Below are positions 12,810-31,029 of a stretch of DNA of 64,000 nt, in pieces. The translations under genes and the position numbers were made by a program. The stretch lies in assembly GCA_943788755.1 (NCBI GenBank), contig CALSRM010000003.1, positions 682,001-746,000 on the forward strand. The letters run 5' to 3'. The notes beneath the pieces were generated by a model. The model was not told the origin of the DNA. It searched no databases and saw only the letters and a program-made list of their open reading frames with translations. How positions within the stretch are numbered: the first letter of the stretch is position 1; each line of letters starts with the position of its first letter. The stretch comes from an uncultured Flavobacteriales bacterium. GTDB taxonomy: Bacteria; Bacteroidota; Bacteroidia; Flavobacteriales_D; Parvicellaceae.

Positions 12810-14105
12810 TTATCTTTTTACAACAATCATCTTTTTTGTTAATGATCTTTGGCCATTGCATTCGATATTGTAATAGTAGACACCTTGTGATAATTGAGAT
12901 GTGGAAACTTGAACGTTTTGAGATGTGTTATTCAATAAAACTCTATCGATTATTTGTCCCATACCATTGGTAATATTCAAATATGCGTTACCTTTTGTTT
13001 GCGGTAAAACATAATTAATAGAAGTTGTTTCATTTGTTGGGTTTGGAATATTTTGAGAAATGTACAATCCATTTTCAGTAAATTCTTCAATTCCAGTTGG
13101 CCCATAAATAACATTGATTTCAAAATCATCATAATAGAATCCATCCTCTCTGACACCACCATCCGCAATAATAGTAAATCGAGCCATAATGTTTTGCCCA
13201 AGATAATCACTCAAGTTGATTTCTTCTTTTACCCAATTAGACTGAAATCCATCATATAAAGGCTCTCCAGTTGCTTGATTAGAAGAGCCGGTTTTAGTAT
13301 ATTTTCCACATTGTGGAATCCAAGAAGATCCCCCGTTCGTCGATATTTCAAGTTGAACATAATCATATCCTGCTTCAATTTCCCACTTTCCATAGAAAGA
13401 AAGTGTTGCAGCTACGGCATTGTTTAAATCAATACCAGAAGACATGGTAATTGATTTGTTTGCGCCATTCGCATAGTTTCCATTAGGAGAGTCAGTTATG
13501 GAGCTAGGAGCAGAATAGAAAGTGCTCGTTGTTGTATTCCAGGTTGCGGAAACTGTCCAGTTATTTAAACTATTTGCTGCGTCTGAAAATACCGTTTGTG
13601 ATTGACCATAGGTTTTAGTAACTGTATCGTTAGACAGAAACTGCCCATTGTCAATAGAAATAACATAAGTTAATAAATCACCAGCGGCGATGGTTGGATC
13701 TAAAGTATAGCTGATAGAGTCATTATCTTGTTGCAACAATGCCATTGCATTGTGCGAATTTGCTGATCCAACAGTAAGGATGTTGCTAGTAATCGGGATA
13801 ATCGAAACCGTAAAATTTGCAGGATTCTCTAAGCCTAAGCGCTGAATGTCATAATAAAAATTTCCGCTTAAATCGGGGATAATTTCATCTGTTAGATCGT
13901 TTGATACAGCATAGTTAGTCACCAGGTGAGCTGCAGTTAAGTTTAAATAAACCATTCCTTCCGCAATAGGGTCAATTTCATTTACTGCTGGCCAAAAGCC
14001 GGTACCCCCCAATTTCAGGAGTGAAAGCAAATATTTTATCATGTGTGCTGGTCTCACCATACATAAAGTCATCAGAATCACCTGCCGCCGGATACAAACC
14101 TGCAC
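12810..14105 (-). CDS. M14 zinc carboxypeptidase, C-terminal part (MAM/jelly-roll domain and T9SS sorting domain); frameshifted
   Basis: Continues the peptidase starting at 15264, in a second frame; matching sequence resumes at about 14010 (GGTGFWPAVNEIDPIAEGM, the end of the M14 domain), so the start at 14105 is artificial. Next come a beta-sandwich linker, a MAM/immune-inhibitor-like jelly-roll (SAPSSITDSPNGNY, YDYVQLEISTNGGSSW, NIMARFTIIADGG) and a T9SS type A domain (ISQNIPNPTNETTSINYVLP, LSQGVYYYNIECNG). The break is at the C6 run 14005-14010; five bases instead of six give an uninterrupted protein of about 820 residues. Confidence 0.82.
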   Translation of the reverse strand: MQVCIRRQVILMTLCMVRPAHMIKYLLSLLKLGGTGFWPAVNEIDPIAEGMVYLNLTAAHLVTNYAVSNDLTDEIIPDLSGNFYYDIQRLGLENPANFTVSIIPITSNILTVGSANSHNAMALLQQDNDSISYTLDPTIAAGDLLTYVISIDNGQFLSNDTVTKTYGQSQTVFSDAANSLNNWTVSATWNTTTSTFYSAPSSITDSPNGNYANGANKSITMSSGIDLNNAVAATLSFYGKWEIEAGYDYVQLEISTNGGSSWIPQCGKYTKTGSSNQATGEPLYDGFQSNWVKEEINLSDYLGQNIMARFTIIADGGVREDGFYYDDFEINVIYGPTGIEEFTENGLYISQNIPNPTNETTSINYVLPQTKGNAYLNITNGMGQIIDRVLLNNTSQNVQVSTSQLSQGVYYYNIECNGQRSLTKKMIVVKR

Positions 14106-15264
14106 TTATCATATTGTTGTATCCATTTTCGGCAACCATCATTCCTGATATTGCAACGTAGGTGCTGTTGTCTGGAGTTAGTTGATTATTGTCATAGCCG
14201 TAAGGGTATAAAAGCAAATCTCCTGAGGTGTGATTGTTCAGCGCTAACTTAATGTTGTGATTTTCTACAAACCATTTTATCGCTTGGTTTTCTGGTTCAG
14301 TAAATGGCCCAGTACCAGGATAAACATCGCTATTTGGGTCAGAAGAAACTCCAGAAGTACCCCAGATACTATTTCCTGAACCATCAATATAATCGTAATT
14401 TCTGTTGTTGTCTACCCCTGGATTAGAAGATCCAACATTTCTTTTGTTTTTACGATGCATCCCTCCACCATTTGGGTCATTGTCAACATTGTGTTGGTAG
14501 CCATCAGGGTTAATCATGGGAATAAAATAAAGCTCTGTGTTATCTAATATCCCTTGAACTTCTGCGCTCGTTGCATAGTTTTCCAGCATGTACCACATGT
14601 AATATACCAATTGCTGCATTGCCTCAGGCTCTCTAGCATGGTGTATCGCCGTATATAATACTTCAGGTTCCGCTTCATCTGAATTTGGATTATCAGACAT
14701 TCGCATCCAATATAATGGCCTATTCTCGTGTGTTAAAAATGTGCTTACAGGAGCTTTTACTGAAATTAAGTTTGGATATAATGCTGCCATGTCATCCAAT
14801 TCTTGATACAATTCAGTAAGGGTTAAAAAACCACCCATAGAACCGTGGTTGTAGTTTGCTGGAACAGGATAACTAACAGACGAAGATCCCGAACAACTTG
14901 CATTTTTTTCAGAAGGAGTAGATTTATCTATCCCTTTATTTTGCTCAACATAAAACTGCTTAACATCCTCAATCTGGATTTCAACTTTCATTCCAAGCAT
15001 TTTTGCTTTCTGGATATCATTTTCCGAAAAATCAGATTCAATATAGACGCCAAATTTATGTTTACCATGATCGACAGCAAGCCCTTGATTTGCTAATAGC
15101 AAGATCCCTTTTGGACCATCATAGTAAATTCTAGCACGATGATACATTATGGGTGTTTCTTTTACAGAAGTTATTGTTTCTGCAGAAGTAACGGTTTGTG
15201 GAGTCTGACAGAAAAAGTTCCCGCTAAATAACATAGCGAAAGATAAAATAGTGATTTGTTTCAT
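13978..15264 (-). CDS. M14 family zinc carboxypeptidase, N-terminal part (signal peptide and catalytic domain)
   Basis: Signal peptide MKQITILSFAMLFSGNFFC, a short propeptide-like region, then the M14 domain: AIHHAREPEAMQ (zinc ligands His and Glu, about residue 208), FIPMINPDGYQHN, KNKRN, NNRNYDY (substrate Arg), NNHTSGDLLLYPYG (third zinc His) and FAFTPEIGG (near the catalytic Glu). Secreted M14 enzymes of this type in Bacteroidota trim C-terminal residues from proteins outside the cell. Reads correctly to the C6 run at 14005-14010, then leaves frame. Together with the next frame it is a T9SS-exported multidomain peptidase. Confidence 0.85.
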   Translation of the reverse strand: MKQITILSFAMLFSGNFFCQTPQTVTSAETITSVKETPIMYHRARIYYDGPKGILLLANQGLAVDHGKHKFGVYIESDFSENDIQKAKMLGMKVEIQIEDVKQFYVEQNKGIDKSTPSEKNASCSGSSSVSYPVPANYNHGSMGGFLTLTELYQELDDMAALYPNLISVKAPVSTFLTHENRPLYWMRMSDNPNSDEAEPEVLYTAIHHAREPEAMQQLVYYMWYMLENYATSAEVQGILDNTELYFIPMINPDGYQHNVDNDPNGGGMHRKNKRNVGSSNPGVDNNRNYDYIDGSGNSIWGTSGVSSDPNSDVYPGTGPFTEPENQAIKWFVENHNIKLALNNHTSGDLLLYPYGYDNNQLTPDNSTYVAISGMMVAENGYNNMISAGLYPAAGDSDDFMYGETSTHDKIFAFTPEIGGYRLLASSK

Positions 15265-19471: not shown

Positions 19472-19996
19472 TTAAAAGCTGTGTCCTATAGAAATACCTC
19501 CCCAAATTCCGAATTCTGGATAGACAATTGGAATGGCTCCCGCACGAAAAATGAATTTTCCTTTCGGTTTTTGATATCGATAGCCAATTCTAGTAAAAAT
19601 AAATTGATCCCAAATTTCTCCAAAATCATTAGATATTACAAAATTCGGTGATCCACCAATTCCGAGTTCAATATGATGTTCTTTGAATGATAATAATTGA
19701 TTTATCGATATTGGAATTATAAAACCTCTCCATGATTTTGTGCCCATATAAGAAAATCCAATGCTTGCTAAAGTTTTTAATTTATTACCGTTAACTATTA
19801 CTCTTTCATAATTGATAGAGTATAGGCCAGCTGCACCAAGAAGCTCTAAATGGAAATCATTTTTTTGATGAAATATCCATTTTGATATTTGGTTGGAATC
19901 AGCATTAGTTTTGACAGAGCCTAAGGAGTCATTTTCTGTTTGAGATATAGCTGAAATGGAACAGTAAAAAAGTGTAATTAAGACCAATGATTTCAT
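19472..19996 (-). CDS. Secreted beta-barrel-like protein of unknown function
   Basis: About 174 residues from ATG 19996, which starts a signal peptide (MKSLVLITLFYCSISAISQ); the frame is open to 20029 but without signal character. The mature part has alternating hydrophobic beta strands (HLELLGAAGLYSINYERVI, LASIGFSYMG, HIELGIGGSPNFVI, FIFTRIGYRYQ, FIFRAGAIPIV) and ends in an aromatic-type C-terminus (GGISIGHSF), as outer-membrane barrels do. Probably a small 8-strand barrel in the outer membrane. It lies directly downstream of the attC-like site and may be the next cassette. Function not recognised. Confidence 0.65.
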   Translation of the reverse strand: MKSLVLITLFYCSISAISQTENDSLGSVKTNADSNQISKWIFHQKNDFHLELLGAAGLYSINYERVIVNGNKLKTLASIGFSYMGTKSWRGFIIPISINQLLSFKEHHIELGIGGSPNFVISNDFGEIWDQFIFTRIGYRYQKPKGKFIFRAGAIPIVYPEFGIWGGISIGHSF

Positions 19997-20067
19997 AAGC
20001 ATATTTTTATGAGCGTATAAAAATACCATAAGTTGTTTTTTTGGGGGGGTAAATACTATTTAATTGT

Positions 20068-20120
20068 AGCTAACGGTTAGTATAAGCGGCTGTTTTAATG
20101 CAGCTTATACATTGTTAGGT
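20068..20120 (-). other. attC-like integron recombination site
   Basis: Read on the minus strand: core ACCTAAC (20114-20120, fits RYYYAAC), 3-nt spacer, GTATAAGC, a 15-nt centre, GCTTATAC, 5-nt spacer, core GTTAGCT (20068-20074, one mismatch to GTTRRRY). The two inner arms are perfectly complementary and the unequal spacers are as in real attC sites. The stop codon of the upstream gene (TAA, 20115-20117) lies inside the first core, the classic position in integron cassettes. Confidence 0.65.
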
Positions 20121-20733
20121 AATGTTTTTTATTAATTTATTAATTTCTCTGAAGCCCTTATCGAACTTTGACTTATCATAATGTTCAAAGAGAAGAATAT
20201 ATTGCTTTGACTCTTTATTAACCGCATATGCTCTATTCCACCTGATAACCATAACCGGAGAATAATTTGTGCTACCTTTTATAGATTGAGATCTCGGTTT
20301 ATCTCTTTTTTTGCGGAGGTACGATATATCATCAATGTTTAATTTAGATACCTTTTTTAAAGAACCATTCCAGTAAGAAATAATTTCTCTAGTTGACTTA
20401 TTGTAATGTACTTGAGATATTTTTCCAATTATTAACCATTTCCAACCATAGTATAATAAAACAACCCCTAAAATAAATACTATAATAGTACCAACATATT
20501 CGACTATTTCTCCCTTAAATGGAAAATTTTCCGTTGAAAATGGCATCCATGACAAATCTTGATCAGCGTAACCAAGTATTTTCAGAATAAAAATTATGCT
20601 AATATAAAGTGCGATAAACCCAAATGATGCAAGAAAAACACCACTAAACCACTTGAAGGCATTTTGATCCTTTGAATAGTCTAAAATCAGCATTTTATCT
20701 TTTGTTTGTTGCACCATAATTTATTTTACCTAA
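20074..20733 (-). mobile_element. Putative integron gene cassette (660 bp) carrying one unknown membrane protein gene
   Basis: On the minus strand the unit starts with TTAGGT of a GTTAGGT core (20728-20734), has its ATG 11 bp after that core, contains one gene and almost no other sequence, and ends at the G of the GTTAGCT core of the attC-like site. This is the layout of integron gene cassettes cut at G^TTRRRY. No integrase gene is in the window, so it would be an integrase-less cluster or a single inserted cassette. Inference from layout; not confirmed by search. Confidence 0.55.
20115..20717 (-). CDS. Two-transmembrane protein of unknown function (cassette cargo)
   Basis: 200 residues. Two hydrophobic segments (about residues 22-45, GVFLASFGFIALYISIIF, and 70-90, IIVFILGVVLLYYGWKW), then a cytoplasmic or periplasmic beta-rich domain with HYNKSTREIISYWNG and VMVIRWNRAYAV, and a helical end (KGFREINKLIKNIT). 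The layout resembles small PH-like membrane proteins, but I do not recognise a family. The start codon lies inside an inverted repeat with sequence 60 bp upstream (see 20709-20777) and the stop codon lies inside an attC-like core. Probably horizontally acquired. Confidence 0.7.
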   Translation of the reverse strand: MVQQTKDKMLILDYSKDQNAFKWFSGVFLASFGFIALYISIIFILKILGYADQDLSWMPFSTENFPFKGEIVEYVGTIIVFILGVVLLYYGWKWLIIGKISQVHYNKSTREIISYWNGSLKKVSKLNIDDISYLRKKRDKPRSQSIKGSTNYSPVMVIRWNRAYAVNKESKQYILLFEHYDKSKFDKGFREINKLIKNIT

Positions 20734-20777
20734 CGTAGTGCTAAAACACATATGTGTTTTATCCTACTATGGTGCAA
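20709..20777 (-). repeat. Inverted repeat that would enclose the start codon of the cassette gene in a hairpin
   Basis: On the minus strand, TTGCACCATA (20768-20777) is perfectly complementary to TATGGTGCAA (20709-20718), which contains the ATG of the cassette gene. Between them lie GTAG / CTAC and the perfect 18-bp palindrome AAAACACATATGTGTTTT (20743-20760), then the GTTAGGT core. An mRNA starting upstream could fold so that the start codon is paired. Confidence 0.7.
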
Positions 20778-20913
20778 TCTAATTAAAAACCTTCAAAAAC
20801 ACTATCATTCCTGCCTTTTCTGTTTGTTAATGTTGTCAAACGGACTTTTTATTTTGGCAAAATCTAATTTGGGCCCTAAACATGGTTAGTGATGTATTAA
20901 ATAAAATAGGGGT

Positions 20914-24680: not shown

Positions 24681-25059
24681 TTATTCAATAATAAGCTTTT
24701 TAGAAATTCTATCAGCGTCATTGAATAACGTAACAATATAAGTTCCTTTGCTTACATCCGTTAGGTTTATCACACCGTTTGTGGGTACCGTATTTTTGTA
24801 CACCGTCTGCCCAATAATATTAGCAATTTCAATTATTACATTTTGATGCTTTATTCCTTTTAATGTAATGCTCCCATTTGATGTTGGGTTAGGGTACATA
24901 ACAATTGATTCCAAACTATTTTCAACGAAACTGTTAGATTCATTGTCTGTAATATTAATTGTGGTTGTGGCATTTGAGCCAATTGTGGCTCCATTTGTTG
25001 GGTTTTGTAAGTTCAAAACGATATTTTCTGATGTTTCTACAATTGCATCATCAATAATT
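24681..25059. repeat. Near-identical 3' segment shared with 28228-28606
   Basis: About 380 bp encoding the last Calx-beta end and the T9SS sorting domain differ at about three positions from the segment 3547 bp away. This is direct-repeat DNA inside two neighbouring genes. Confidence 0.85.
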
Positions 25060-28000
25060 CCCAAAAACACGGTTTGTGTTGTGGAAGATCCTGCAGGAAA
25101 TGTCACTGTAGTGGTTGTATAAGTAAAGTCTATACCAATTGTTGCTGTAGAAACTCCCAAAGAAACATCCACACTTGTAGCATTGGCATTGGCATTTGCT
25201 AAAGTTATATTTAGTAATACCGTTCCAGCGCTTTCATTTACGGTTAGAGCTGCTGCCTCGAAAGATACAGTAACGGCATCATTATCCGCAATCGTTATTG
25301 TTTGTGTTCCAATGGAACCAATTGTGGCTCCATTTGTTGGATTTTGTAAGCTCAACAGTATGTCTTCATTCCCTTCTATGATAGCATCATCAATAATGGT
25401 TAGCATAATAGTTTGTGAAGCATTAGAACCAGCCGGGAAGGTTACCATAGTTGGATTGAAACTAAAGTCAGAGCCATTTATTGCAGTAGAAGCACCCAAA
25501 GAAACATCCACACTTATAGTATTGGCATTTGGATTTGCTATGTCAACTTGCACGGAAATTGTTCCAGCACTTTCATTCACCGTAGTCGCTGAAGTATTAA
25601 AAGAAATTAACGGATCAGCAACATCATTGTCCACAATTGTAATGGTCTGAGTGTCATTCGAGCCAATAGATGCACTGTTTGTTGAGTTCTGTAAGTTCAA
25701 TACGATGTTTTCATCTCCTTCTATATCTATATCATCAATAATGGTTAGAGTTACGGTTTGTGTTGTGGCAGATCCTGCGGGAAAAGTAACCGTAGTTGGA
25801 GTTGTATAATTAAAATCAACTCCATTTGTTGCGGTGGAAGCACCTAAAACAACATCAACCGAAGTAGCATTGCCATTTTCACTTAATATAGCAATGTTCA
25901 CCGTAACTGTTCCAACGTCTTCATTTACCGTAACTGTTGCGAGATCGAAAGTAACAACAGGGTTAGAAGCTACATCATTGTCTGTAATGATAATAGCATG
26001 TTGCGAAACAGCTCCAATAGTAGCATTGTTTGTTGTGTTTTCGAGATTCAACACCACGTTCTCAGATAGTTCTACAACTACATCATCGATGATTGTAAGC
26101 ATAACAGTTTGTGAAGCACTAGAACCAGCCGGGAAGGTTACCGTAGTTGGAGTTGTATAATTAAAATCGGAACCATTAGTTGCAGTAGAAGCTCCTAAAG
26201 CAACATTTACTGTTGTAGAGTTTGCATTTGGATTAGCTATATCAACTTGCACAGTAACTGTTCCAACGTCTTCATTTACCGTAACAGATGCAAGATCAAA
26301 AGTAACTACTGGATCAAGAGCTACATCATTATCTGTGATGGTAATAGCATGTTGCGAAACAGCTCCAATAGTAGCATTGTTTGTTGGATTTTCGAGATTC
26401 AACACCACGTTCTCAGATAGTTCTACAACTACATCATCGATGATTGTAAGCATAACAGTTTGTGAAGCACTAGAACCAGCCGGAAAAGTAACCGTAGTTG
26501 GAGTTGTATAATTAAAATCGTCTCCATTTGTTGCGGTGGAAGCACCTAAAGCAACATCTACTGTTGTAGAATTTGCATTTGGATTAACTATATCAACTTG
26601 CATGGAGATTGTTCCAGCACTTTCATTAACTATTACCGAGGCATTATTAAAAGAAACTGACGGTACTAATTCATCTACATCAATCATTGGGATCTGCATT
26701 CTTGGCATATCACCATTGCCAAACCCAAGACCATACCAAGTTGCAGCACCATCGGCATCGGTACCATAAGTAACAGAGATAGGTTCATCATATAAACTAT
26801 CCTGGTTTAATTGATAATCTTGAGTTGTATTGTAAGGCATTTGAAATTCTGGACTAAAAGCAGTTATGCAGAATAGGTAGCGTTGGTTATCCACTAATGC
26901 AATATTTTCTTCAAAGTTTAAAAATACATTTTGATTTTGTAAGTCAGAGTCATAAACGTATGAGCCATAAGCTATTTCTGTTAACGCTGACAGGGCAAAA
27001 TTTGGGTCGCTAATGCCTGTAAAGGAATCATCCCAGCTATAAGCTCGCCCCTCTATGTATTCATTGTCTAATGGAACTTCACTTACAGGAGATGTTGCTC
27101 CTGCAAATTCAATTCCGGTAACACCAACTCTGCTTGCGTTCGGATTAGAGAAAGCAATACAAAACCTTTGTTCATCAGCTGCATCTAAAGCCACAGATCT
27201 TCTAGCCGTGCCTCCTGTCATTTCCATTGTTAAAGAATCATAACCGCAATAAGAGAAACCTTCACCCGTGATAGAAAAATCAGCTGACCTATTGTTATCA
27301 CTCATATATTCGTCAGCATTGTCACTGGTAATTTCATAGATTGTATGGTAATAACCTACATTATAAGTTGTTTGTGAGAAGGTTGGTAAAACAAAATAAG
27401 CACTATCTCCAACTGGAATATCTATCGGGGTTGAAGTTTCACTGTAAAGAGAGGCTCCGCCTAATTTTATTTCAGCGGATAGTGAAACATTTGTTTGATC
27501 CAATAAACCATAATTAAAAACCCAAGTTCCAACTTCAACACTAAATTCAGAAGCATTTTGTGCTAAAATTTGCGGAGTTACTGCGCTAGGAGCTCGTAGC
27601 ATATGCTCTTGGTTAAAACCAATATCATAATCAAAAAGGCCATTTTTAGTTCCGTAAAATATTTCTACATCAGTTCCAGCATCCACTTGAGCTCTGATAG
27701 CAGCACCAGTAACGGAAGAAATCATTAAAACAGGCACACTTACACTTGGACCATCTGTACCAGGTCCCATTCCAACAACTCCCGGAGCTATATTAATAAT
27801 GATTACGCCAATAGCGCCTGCGTTTTCTGCATTTAATGCTTTTGTTCCAAATTCACATGAGCCTCTATATAATACGGCAATTTTCCCAGTTAAGTCAGCA
27901 CTTAATGGACTACAAGCCAAGGTGTCTCCTCCAGGTTCAGCTACCAATTGCAGTGTTCCTTGGATATAATTTAATGGAATGGTCATGTCTGGGGTTAGAG

Positions 28001-28136
28001 GCCATGTTGCAATGTCAACCCCATCAAAAGGGTGTTCACCAGCAATTGCTGCAGGCGATTCCACATTAAAAATAACTTGAGCATTAGCCGAACCGATTCC
28101 AGCTAATACTAATAGGGGAAGTAATAATTTTTTCAT
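24681..28136 (-). CDS. Secreted PA-domain and Calx-beta repeat protein with T9SS sorting domain
   Basis: 1151 residues. Signal peptide (MKKLLLPLLVLAGIGSANA), a PA (protease-associated) domain near residues 40-165 (KIAVLYRGSCEFGTKALNAE, GAIGVIIIN), a beta-rich region of about 300 residues, then five Calx-beta domains of about 110 residues, each with VTVNE, TVTFPAGS, QTVMLTIIDD and ATIG, and a C-terminal T9SS type A domain (IVMYPNPTSNGSITLKG, VSKGTYIVTLFNDADRIS). The TDND / DDxxxE residues are calcium ligands in the family. It is probably a surface-bound or released calcium-dependent adhesin. PA domains often accompany peptidases, but no catalytic domain is visible. The last 380 bp are nearly identical to those of the next gene. 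Confidence 0.88.
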   Translation of the reverse strand: MKKLLLPLLVLAGIGSANAQVIFNVESPAAIAGEHPFDGVDIATWPLTPDMTIPLNYIQGTLQLVAEPGGDTLACSPLSADLTGKIAVLYRGSCEFGTKALNAENAGAIGVIIINIAPGVVGMGPGTDGPSVSVPVLMISSVTGAAIRAQVDAGTDVEIFYGTKNGLFDYDIGFNQEHMLRAPSAVTPQILAQNASEFSVEVGTWVFNYGLLDQTNVSLSAEIKLGGASLYSETSTPIDIPVGDSAYFVLPTFSQTTYNVGYYHTIYEITSDNADEYMSDNNRSADFSITGEGFSYCGYDSLTMEMTGGTARRSVALDAADEQRFCIAFSNPNASRVGVTGIEFAGATSPVSEVPLDNEYIEGRAYSWDDSFTGISDPNFALSALTEIAYGSYVYDSDLQNQNVFLNFEENIALVDNQRYLFCITAFSPEFQMPYNTTQDYQLNQDSLYDEPISVTYGTDADGAATWYGLGFGNGDMPRMQIPMIDVDELVPSVSFNNASVIVNESAGTISMQVDIVNPNANSTTVDVALGASTATNGDDFNYTTPTTVTFPAGSSASQTVMLTIIDDVVVELSENVVLNLENPTNNATIGAVSQHAITITDNDVALDPVVTFDLASVTVNEDVGTVTVQVDIANPNANSTTVNVALGASTATNGSDFNYTTPTTVTFPAGSSASQTVMLTIIDDVVVELSENVVLNLENTTNNATIGAVSQHAIIITDNDVASNPVVTFDLATVTVNEDVGTVTVNIAILSENGNATSVDVVLGASTATNGVDFNYTTPTTVTFPAGSATTQTVTLTIIDDIDIEGDENIVLNLQNSTNSASIGSNDTQTITIVDNDVADPLISFNTSATTVNESAGTISVQVDIANPNANTISVDVSLGASTAINGSDFSFNPTMVTFPAGSNASQTIMLTIIDDAIIEGNEDILLSLQNPTNGATIGSIGTQTITIADNDAVTVSFEAAALTVNESAGTVLLNITLANANANATSVDVSLGVSTATIGIDFTYTTTTVTFPAGSSTTQTVFLGIIDDAIVETSENIVLNLQNPTNGATIGSNATTTINITDNESNSFVENSLESIVMYPNPTSNGSITLKGIKHQNVIIEIANIIGQTVYKNTVPTNGVINLTDVSKGTYIVTLFNDADRISKKLIIE

Positions 28137-28227
28137 AAAATTTTAATTTAAAATATTGTTCGAACGTAGTATAAAGATATTGAAATTAAAAATTAGCATA
28201 TTTTTTTTGATGCAGTTAAAAAGTTAT

Positions 28228-31029
28228 TTATTCAATAATAAGCTTTTTAGAAATTCTATCAGCGTCATTGAATAACGTAACAATATAAGTTCCTTTGCTT
28301 ACATCCGTTAGGTTTATCACACCGTTTGTGGATACCGTATTTTTGTACACCTTCTGCCCAATAATATTAGCAATTTCAATTATTACATTTTGATGCTTTA
28401 TTCCTTTTAATGTAATGCTCCCATTTGATGTTGGGTTAGGGTACATAACAATTGATTCCAAACTATTTTCAACGAAACTGTTAGGTTCATTGTCTGTAAT
28501 ATTAATTGTGGTTGTGGCATTTGAGCCAATTGTGGCTCCATTTGTTGGGTTTTGTAAGTTCAAAACGATATTTTCTGATGTTTCTACAATTGCATCATCA
28601 ATAATAGTTAAAGTAACTGTTTGTGTTGTATTAGAGTTAGCTGGAAACGTTACCGTAGTTGGAGAAGTATAGTTAAAATCGTCTCCATTTGTTGCTGTTG
28701 ATGTACCTAAGGCAATATCAACCGAAGTTGCATTAGTATTGGGGCTTAGTATTTCAACGTTTACAGTAACCGTTCCAACACTTTCATTTACCGTTACGGT
28801 AGCAGCGTCAAAAGAAATAACCGCAGCATCATTGTCCGTAATTGTAATTGTTTGGGTGCCGTTAGAGCCTATTGTTGCAGTGTTTGTAGGGTTTTGTAAG
28901 CTTAATACGATGTTTTCATTTGGTTCAAAAATTGCATCATCAATAATAGTTAAAGTAACTGTTTGTGTTGTATTAGAGTTAGCTGGAAACGTTACCGTAG
29001 TTGGAGAAGTATAGTTAAAATCTAAAACATCTGTTGCTGTTGATATACCTAAGGCAACATCAACCGAAGTTGCATTAGTATTGGGGCTTAGTATTTCAAC
29101 GTTTACAGTAACCGTTCCAACGTTTTCATTTACCGTTACGGTAGCAGCGTCAAAAGAAATAACCGCAGCATCATTGTCCGTAATTGTAATTGTCTGAGTG
29201 CCGTTAGAGCCTATTGTTGCGCTGTTTGTAGGGTTTTGTAAGCTTAATACGATGTTTTCATTTGGTTCAAAAATTGCATCATCAATAATAGTTAAAGTAA
29301 CTGTTTGTGTTGTATTAGAGTTAGCTGGAAACGTTACCGTAGTTGGAGAAGTATAGTTAAAATCTAAAACATCTGTTGCTGTTGATATACCTAAGGCAAC
29401 ATCAACCGAAGTTGCATTAGTATTGGGGCTTAGTATTTCAACGTTTACAGTAACCGTTCCAACGTTTTCATTTACCGTTACGGTAGCAGCGTCAAAAGAA
29501 ATAACCGCAGCATCATTGTCCGTAATTGTAATTGTCTGAGTGCCGTTAGAGCCTATTGTTGCGCTGTTTGTAGGGTTTTGTAAGCTTAATACGATGTTTT
29601 CATTTGGTTCAAAAATTGCATCATCAATAATAGTTAAAGTAACTGTTTGTGTTGTATTAGAGTTAGCTGGAAACGTTACCGTAGTTGGAGAAGTATAATT
29701 AAAATCGTCTCCATTTGTTGCTGTTGATGTACCTAAGGCAATATCAACCGAAGTTGCATTAGTACTGGGGCTTAGTATTTCAACGTTTACAGTAACCGTT
29801 CCAACACTTTCATTTACCGTTAAAGCTGCAAGATCAAAGGTAATTAAAGGATTAGCTGATACATCATTATCTGTTATCGTAACAGTATAAGAGTCGTTTG
29901 TTCCAAGTAGAGCTCCATTTGTTGGGTTTTGTAAGCTTAATACTATGTCCTCCGATAGTTCTACAATTGCATCATCAATAATAGTTAAAGTAACTGTTTG
30001 TGCTGTATTAGAGTTAGCTGGAAACGTTACTGTAGTTGGAGAAGTATAGTTAAAATCTAAAACATCTGTTGCAGTGGAAGTTCCCAAAACAACATCAACG
30101 GTTGTTGGGCTCGTATTTTGATCAATAATGTTTACATCTATCGTGACTGTTCCGGCGCTTTCATTTACTGTAATAGAAGAAGCATTAAAAGAAACTACTG
30201 GATTGATATCATTGTCTGTAATAGTAATTGTGGTTGTGGCATTTGAGCCAATTGTTGCTCCATTTGTTGGGTTTTGCAAATTCAAAACGATGTCCTCCGA
30301 GGTTTCTACAATTGCATCATCAACAATAGTTAAAGTAACTGTTTGTGTTGTATTAGAGTTAGCTGGAAACGTTACTATAGTTGGAGAAGTATAGTTAAAA
30401 TCTAAAACATCTGTTGCAGTGGAAGTGCCTAATATAACATCAACGGTTGTTGGATTCGAATTTTGATCAATAATGTTTATGTCCACTGTAACTGTCCCTG
30501 CGCTTTCATCAACCGCAACAGAAGAAGTGTTAAAAGAAACGGTAGGAATAACAGAATCCTTTATTTCAATGAAATAATAATCGATAGTTTGAGGTTGAGG
30601 AGTTGCAACACCCAGAACATCAACTGTTGCAGTAACATAAACGACTAATGGATAAATGCCAATGTCAGCGGAAGTCGGATTTGCTGTACTGTATAGATTT
30701 ATGCACCCCGAGGAATTTCCAGGAAAAACACAATTTGAAGGTGAACAATTATATTCAAAATTTGGTGGTAATCCAGTAACATTATCTAATGTAATGTCAA
30801 CAAAAGGAACAGCAGTAGGTCCAAAAATAGGAATATCGACTATCGTATCTAAAGGAACAACAACAGTAATAACTTCATCATAAGCATAACCAACATAAGC
30901 GGCAGGCAAGCCTGTCGCGCTATCGGGATAAATACCACCTATGGTAAACTGAGGGTCAGGAGTACACTGGGAATAACCTGAAAAAGTGAACGCTACAAGA
31001 GCTGCAATTGAAAGTATAAGTTTTTTCAT
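28228..31029 (-). CDS. Secreted six-Calx-beta repeat protein with T9SS sorting domain
   Basis: 933 residues. Signal peptide (MKKLILSIAALVAFTFSGYS), a unique N-terminal domain of about 150 residues with four Cys (CTPDPQFTIGG, YNCSPSNCVFPGNSSGC), then six Calx-beta repeats of 112-117 residues and the same C-terminal sorting domain as the neighbour at 24681. Repeats 3-6 are almost identical to each other at DNA level with a 342-bp period. Probably a calcium-binding surface adhesin exported by the type IX system. A TATATTTG element (31034-31041) ends 4 bp before the ATG, so the mRNA may be leaderless. The two paralogs differ mainly in their N-terminal domains, which probably set the binding target (inference). 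Confidence 0.88.
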   Translation of the reverse strand: MKKLILSIAALVAFTFSGYSQCTPDPQFTIGGIYPDSATGLPAAYVGYAYDEVITVVVPLDTIVDIPIFGPTAVPFVDITLDNVTGLPPNFEYNCSPSNCVFPGNSSGCINLYSTANPTSADIGIYPLVVYVTATVDVLGVATPQPQTIDYYFIEIKDSVIPTVSFNTSSVAVDESAGTVTVDINIIDQNSNPTTVDVILGTSTATDVLDFNYTSPTIVTFPANSNTTQTVTLTIVDDAIVETSEDIVLNLQNPTNGATIGSNATTTITITDNDINPVVSFNASSITVNESAGTVTIDVNIIDQNTSPTTVDVVLGTSTATDVLDFNYTSPTTVTFPANSNTAQTVTLTIIDDAIVELSEDIVLSLQNPTNGALLGTNDSYTVTITDNDVSANPLITFDLAALTVNESVGTVTVNVEILSPSTNATSVDIALGTSTATNGDDFNYTSPTTVTFPANSNTTQTVTLTIIDDAIFEPNENIVLSLQNPTNSATIGSNGTQTITITDNDAAVISFDAATVTVNENVGTVTVNVEILSPNTNATSVDVALGISTATDVLDFNYTSPTTVTFPANSNTTQTVTLTIIDDAIFEPNENIVLSLQNPTNSATIGSNGTQTITITDNDAAVISFDAATVTVNENVGTVTVNVEILSPNTNATSVDVALGISTATDVLDFNYTSPTTVTFPANSNTTQTVTLTIIDDAIFEPNENIVLSLQNPTNTATIGSNGTQTITITDNDAAVISFDAATVTVNESVGTVTVNVEILSPNTNATSVDIALGTSTATNGDDFNYTSPTTVTFPANSNTTQTVTLTIIDDAIVETSENIVLNLQNPTNGATIGSNATTTINITDNEPNSFVENSLESIVMYPNPTSNGSITLKGIKHQNVIIEIANIIGQKVYKNTVSTNGVINLTDVSKGTYIVTLFNDADRISKKLIIE
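28595..30400. repeat. Tandem 342-bp coding repeats (Calx-beta units)
   Basis: The block AATAATAGTTAAAGTAACTG recurs near 28604, 28946, 29288, 29630, 29972 and 30322, and a second marker (TGATATAC or TGATGTAC) at 28699, 29041, 29383 and 29725, exactly 342 bp apart. The units at 28700-29725 are nearly identical; the two at the upper end have diverged. Confidence 0.9.

Follow-up and report, generated by a model that had tools for sequence, protein, structure and literature searches.

A gene on the minus strand of the window, by which we mean the whole 64,000-nucleotide stretch analysed from an uncultured Flavobacteriales bacterium, is very probably a mobile cassette seated at the attI-like site of an integron-like system that is specific to this Bacteroidota lineage and that works with a tyrosine recombinase devoid of the I2 domain. 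The evidence for the system is comparative throughout and documents its sites and arrays, the relocation of cassettes, junctions at CGTT, a signature of circles, the linkage to the recombinase and the absence of I2 from that enzyme.

Re-reading of the sequence upheld every coordinate that the first-pass annotation had given for the gene, its cores and its hairpin. As annotated, the gene lies between two cores: GTTAGGT reads from 20734 to 20728 on the minus strand with the ATG 11 bp further on, and the TAA stop (20117-20115) falls within CCTAAC (20119-20114), inside the attC-side core. The cargo, described earlier as a two-TM protein, is indeed predicted to have two such helices; Pfam and NCBIfam searches assigned it to no family, and single-sequence structure prediction reached a mean pLDDT of 60, which is too low to support a fold search. 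An Rfam search of the region returned nothing meaningful. The features of the locus are listed in Table 1. Elsewhere in the window, a peptidase-like gene (12810-15264) is broken across two overlapping frames, probably by a frameshift, and two adjacent paralogous repeat proteins (24681-31029) have near-identical C-terminal regions.

Table 1. Features of the cassette locus, numbered by position in the window, and leads outside Bacteroidota.
Feature	Position	Strand	Description
Next gene after attC	19472..20029	-	may be a further cassette; no attC was detected after it
attC-like site	20069..20119	-	CTAAC + 3 nt + 8-bp stem + loop + stem + 5 nt + CGTTAGC
Whole cassette	20074..20733	-	attI-core TT through attC-core G; ends match over 9 nt (GTTAGGTAA)
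Cassette gene	20115..20717	-	ORF call, 200 aa, ATG to TAA, two predicted TM helices
attI-like site	20732..20801	-	palindrome AAAACACATATGTGTTTT (20743-20760), ends at CGTT; identical 69-bp copy in the window genome (G000:C3:841034-841102)
Decayed recombinase 3' end	20802..20874	-	LDFAKIKSPFDNI..., about 20 codons; compared with L006:13107-13574 and L056:17880-19061
Lead, Saccharibacillus	L140:11134-12500		
Lead, Paenibacillus	L144:11059-12000		
Lead, Spirochaetota MAG	L153:11029-12000		
Lead, deltaproteobacterial MAG	L116:754-1900		

The attC-like hairpin has the perfect inner arms and the unequal spacers that had been reported for it: the 8-bp arms GTATAAGC and GCTTATAC occupy 20110-20103 and 20087-20080, and the spacers measure 3 nt (AAT) and 5 nt (TAACC). 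As DNA it folds stably (-7.5 kcal/mol, z -2.57). When the exact inner arms were searched for strictly, the window copy alone was recovered, and a looser covariance model, built solely from this genus, was needed to recover related sites; the window attC belongs to the training sites of this model, so that its own score is not independent. The model found both the attC sites and the second copies in the genome on which the first-pass annotation had made its reading depend: related sites lie at C3:834059, 835329 and 836505 of the window genome, and matches occurred in 35 of 60 relatives and, at E <= 0.001, in 27 of 247 genomes drawn from the class. This recurrence in the genome, in congeners and in the relatives implies that the window hairpin is not a chance structure. 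A generic scan that looked for hairpins flanked by AACA and CGTT likewise revealed a family in the genus, with high-score counts well above those in shuffled sequence, and yielded some chance matches too. Across 15 aligned sites, 88.5% of the pairs were formed, and the covariation score was 0.436 compared with 0.187 after shuffling.

These sites possess the R''/R' cores and the conserved hairpin of an integron attC, and their spacers are usually 3 nt on the 5' side and 5-6 nt on the 3' side. The extrahelical bases of IntI-type attC are not a feature of their stems. Among the inner stems of 58 sites, 22 are perfect, 24 have mismatches only and 12 are bulged; the bulges have no constant place, and 46 of the 58 have none. 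Classical attC sites near true IntI in the Bacteroidota phylum have a bulge after 5-6 bp, and the genus model matched none of them.

The upstream core of the cassette is the edge of a 69-bp attI-like element, of which a 100% identical copy is present in the same genome 139 kb from the window locus. This distant copy sits directly behind the stop of a tyrosine recombinase gene (L006:13107-14276, minus strand), beside a cassette array. The recombinase gene there is full-length but frameshifted; an intact version is present in the congener G003 (L056). The earlier statement that no integrase was in sight thus holds locally, where nothing intact adjoins the cassette, but it misses the integrase tail next to the attI-like site and the full-length gene beside the identical attI. 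The copy at L006 was the only close one found in the window genome, and its split could reflect a frameshift or an assembly error. When about a dozen attI copies from the window genome and three congeners were aligned, they were conserved up to AACG, which is CGTT on the cassette strand, and carried a different sequence each beyond that point, as expected of an attI with different first cassettes. An attI beside an integrase gene, a general mark of integrons, is therefore present here. In most of the order's homologues that were read, as in named Flavobacteriaceae, tens of bases at most separate the recombinase stop from an attI-like palindrome behind it. The window genome has a second type of such palindrome at L004:1501-1540 (G000:C3:1080623); it resembles the one behind a different integrase of the congener G002, and no integrase was seen adjoining it. 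In or near the L006 array, a truncated reverse transcriptase (RVT_1; L006:4262-4903) and an Lcl_C-like protein (L006:8622-9989) are perhaps the remains of a diversity-generating retroelement.

The intact recombinase scored 237 bits against NF040815, above the cut-off of 220, and 228.7 against the IntI family TIGR02249, below the cut-off of 265. Relative to the structure of the Vibrio cholerae integron integrase (2a3v), about 43 amino acids are missing. The distance from GKGxKDR to RHSFA is 68 amino acids in 24 of 24 attI-linked recombinases, against 110 in the true IntI of the phylum, and all 24 evidently lack the additional (I2) domain of IntI. In a quick maximum-likelihood tree, IntI formed a single branch with a support of 100, and the attI-linked proteins fell elsewhere, in a group made up largely of Bacteroidota (support 96), where some of them intermix with relatives outside the set whose adjoining sites were read. 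The I2 domain is essential in IntI1 (PMC9668308, PMC7790495); its helix docks the extrahelical bases, and its deletion abolishes IntI1 (PMC7790495). At the level of sequence, both partners of this one contact, I2 and the extrahelical bases, are missing together here. A survey of tyrosine recombinases described the insertion as "not fully conserved" within its integron-like subgroup (PMC8138268), so that I2-less integron-like proteins had already been seen; in the open-licence PMC literature we found no description of their arrays.

The search of the genome for integrases, suggested by the first-pass annotation, thus had two outcomes: it gave no IntI-family match at the search threshold, and it brought up the I2-less, frameshifted tyrosine recombinase. 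True IntI was detected in 84 of 296 genomes of the Bacteroidota phylum, commonly outside the window's class and hardly within it. Older surveys reportedly found it to be rarer in the phylum. We consider it highly improbable that the window holds an ordinary integron or CALIN cassette that was mobilised by a true IntI since lost or encoded elsewhere. The overall attC/attI architecture would be the same and IntI does occur in the phylum, but this reading leaves unexplained that IntI is unmatched in the window genome and almost absent from the class, that the phylum's classical attC carry extrahelical bases and escape the genus model, and that attI is tied to an I2-less recombinase across many genera. 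Since the linked recombinase is I2-less and stands outside the IntI clade, the window cassette is not an orphan of an ordinary integron either.

We then considered the arrays. Across 17 stretches with integrases, including those of Winogradskyella ursingii, Seonamhaeicola aphaedonensis and Flavobacteriaceae S0862, 61 of 61 model matches lay on the integrase strand and downstream of the integrase stop; with a reach of 30 kb around nine integrases, this was true of 36 of 36 sites among the matches listed. Two of the 61 matches (L232:15884-15925 and L233:7483-7523) coincide with attI, which indicates that attI is itself attC-like. The array of G004 begins directly behind its integrase and extends over about 25 kb, whereas 54 kb of neighbouring sequence from the same genome gave zero attC model matches. 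Arrays contain about one gene per cassette, and 7966 of 8033 amino acids are encoded on the array strand. In the cassette region of G004, a DNA adenine methylase-like protein and a partner gene (L067:12904-14888) are, judged by the look of the protein, possibly a restriction-modification pair.

In integrons, the bases that follow the core at the start of a cassette derive from the same attC as the R'' that closes it, and the two should match. Counting at least 3 matching bases beyond GTT (often there were 6-7), we found matching cassette ends in 35 of 53 neighbouring site pairs, compared with a mean of 6.1 and a maximum of 14 after shuffling; the two halves of one site matched in just 6 of 69 cases. 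The non-matching pairs include long intervals, in which a site was probably missed. The ends of the window cassette match over GTTAGGTAA. This pattern fits the insertion of circles at the core, as in integrons, and would be hard to explain otherwise.

The arrays also bear on the possibility that the recombinase is a passenger, an ordinary XerA-like mobile-element integrase, while the host XerCD moves the arrays via their hairpins in a manner comparable to CTXphi. The recombinase is Xer-like and without I2, and the attC stems look like double-stranded DNA, both of which would suit this account; we nevertheless judge it very unlikely, given that in many genera the recombinase stop is directly followed by attI, that arrays always begin there and that the CGTT-core sites appear to lack the usual layout of a dif site.

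Comparison of loci between congeners revealed that cassettes move. The window cassette together with its attI (751 bp) recurs at a different locus of G003 (C11:211035-211785) with 746 of 751 positions identical (99%), whereas for the genes flanking the window locus the identity between the two species is 85-89%. The orthologous place in G003 carries the same attI and integrase tail, followed by another, three-gene cassette that is closed by a different attC just before an ABC1-kinase-like gene. In G002 this place likewise holds genes bounded by attC; no attI was seen in it. The gene is thus absent from the same place in relatives, contrary to the fixed position in all relatives that the first-pass annotation had named as speaking against its reading, and this exchange at one attI among congeners marks the locus as an attI with exchangeable content. 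Several blocks of high identity between species terminate at CGTT cores, and G004 carries a tandem cassette duplication with a period of 787 bp and breakpoints at the CGTT core. Beside the integrase locus, a stretch shared by G003 (L056:8780-17276) and G002 (L059:1-8496) has 98.5% identity, above that of other shared stretches, and the integrase type behind it differs between the two.

One could still ask whether the hairpins arose by chance or belong to a REP/MITE-like repeat between ordinary chromosomal genes, given that short AT-rich hairpins are common and that some matches of the generic scan are fortuitous. We rejected this explanation, whose probability we put close to nil: it is contradicted by the covariation of base pairs, by the one-sided strand and position of the matches, by the relocation of a whole cassette at near-identity and by the circle signature.

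The preferred reading, a mobile cassette of a lineage-specific integron-like system, places the locus next to several known systems. Like an integron, it has an attI adjoining a tyrosine recombinase gene, cassettes on the same strand, attC sites ending in GTTRRRY-type cores, matching cassette ends and one-sided insertion. It differs in its I2-less recombinase outside the IntI clade, in attC stems mostly without extrahelical bases, in an attI that is an attC-like palindrome, and in the orientation of the integrase gene, the 3' end of which faces attI here and the 5' end in an integron. The integron-cassette packaging claimed at first was therefore borne out for attI, attC, mobility between loci and the circle signature; the recombinase linked to it is not of the IntI kind, and an integron-like way of working with an enzyme that fails the defining test for IntI points to a new variant. 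The recombinase resembles XerA and NF040815 ('site-specific tyrosine recombinase/integron integrase'), whose profile it passes and whose catalytic motifs it conserves, but it is linked to attI and arrays and mostly carries an N-terminal extension of about 100 amino acids; NF040815 describes a protein and not a cassette system. A CALIN, an attC cluster without integron integrase, is similar in that its cassettes and attC have no intact integrase next to them. By the default of IntegronFinder 2, however, it comprises at least 2 attC and no integrase (PMC9024848), whereas the window locus has a single attC, an attI and an integrase remnant; with this single attC, the genes behind it may be ordinary. 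In CTXphi/IMEX integration by XerCD, an I2-less recombinase also uses a folded single-strand hairpin (PMC4792948), but these elements have no recombinase of their own, no arrays and dif as their target. Searches of the open-licence PMC literature on Bacteroidota integrons, XerA, integron origins, Winogradskyella and Psychroflexus brought up no account of the system, which is apparently undescribed in the papers covered.

We infer that the XerA/IntI-related recombinase, which has no I2 and whose gene faces its own attI with its 3' end, would join the CGTT core of attI to that of the attC hairpin of a circular cassette. The substrate would probably be a folded single strand, and the unequal 3/5-nt spacers, in place of extrahelical bases, would decide which strand is used. 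Recombination of attI with the attC of a circle at CGTT would let cassettes enter one after another behind attI in one orientation, and reactions between two attC sites would excise or move them. At the window locus, with its decayed integrase, an integrase encoded elsewhere in the genome presumably acted in trans on the attI that survives. As integrase and cassettes are co-directional, the cassettes may be expressed through read-through from the integrase side.

The system may reach beyond Bacteroidota. Behind the I2-less recombinases found in Saccharibacillus, Paenibacillus, a Spirochaetota MAG and a deltaproteobacterial MAG come CGTT-core sites and attC-like hairpins, with small genes lying among them, and the cassette ends of Saccharibacillus match when read by eye; these leads from Paenibacillaceae, Spirochaetota and a deltaproteobacterium are possibly the same kind of system. 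We lean slightly towards the view that there is a second kind of integron, in which an I2-less recombinase lineage by itself evolved the recombination of hairpin cassettes or retained it from an ancestor, with spacer asymmetry replacing extrahelical bases. The I2 helix is held to have turned a Xer-like recombinase into the integron integrase, and outside integrons the integration of CTXphi alone has been named as resembling cassette recombination (PMC4792948, PMC7790495). Surveys based on IntI would be expected to miss such arrays or to leave them as orphans, because they search for IntI. A widespread cassette-array system without I2 or extrahelical bases would add a large set of mobile genes and would open the origin of integrons to direct tests.
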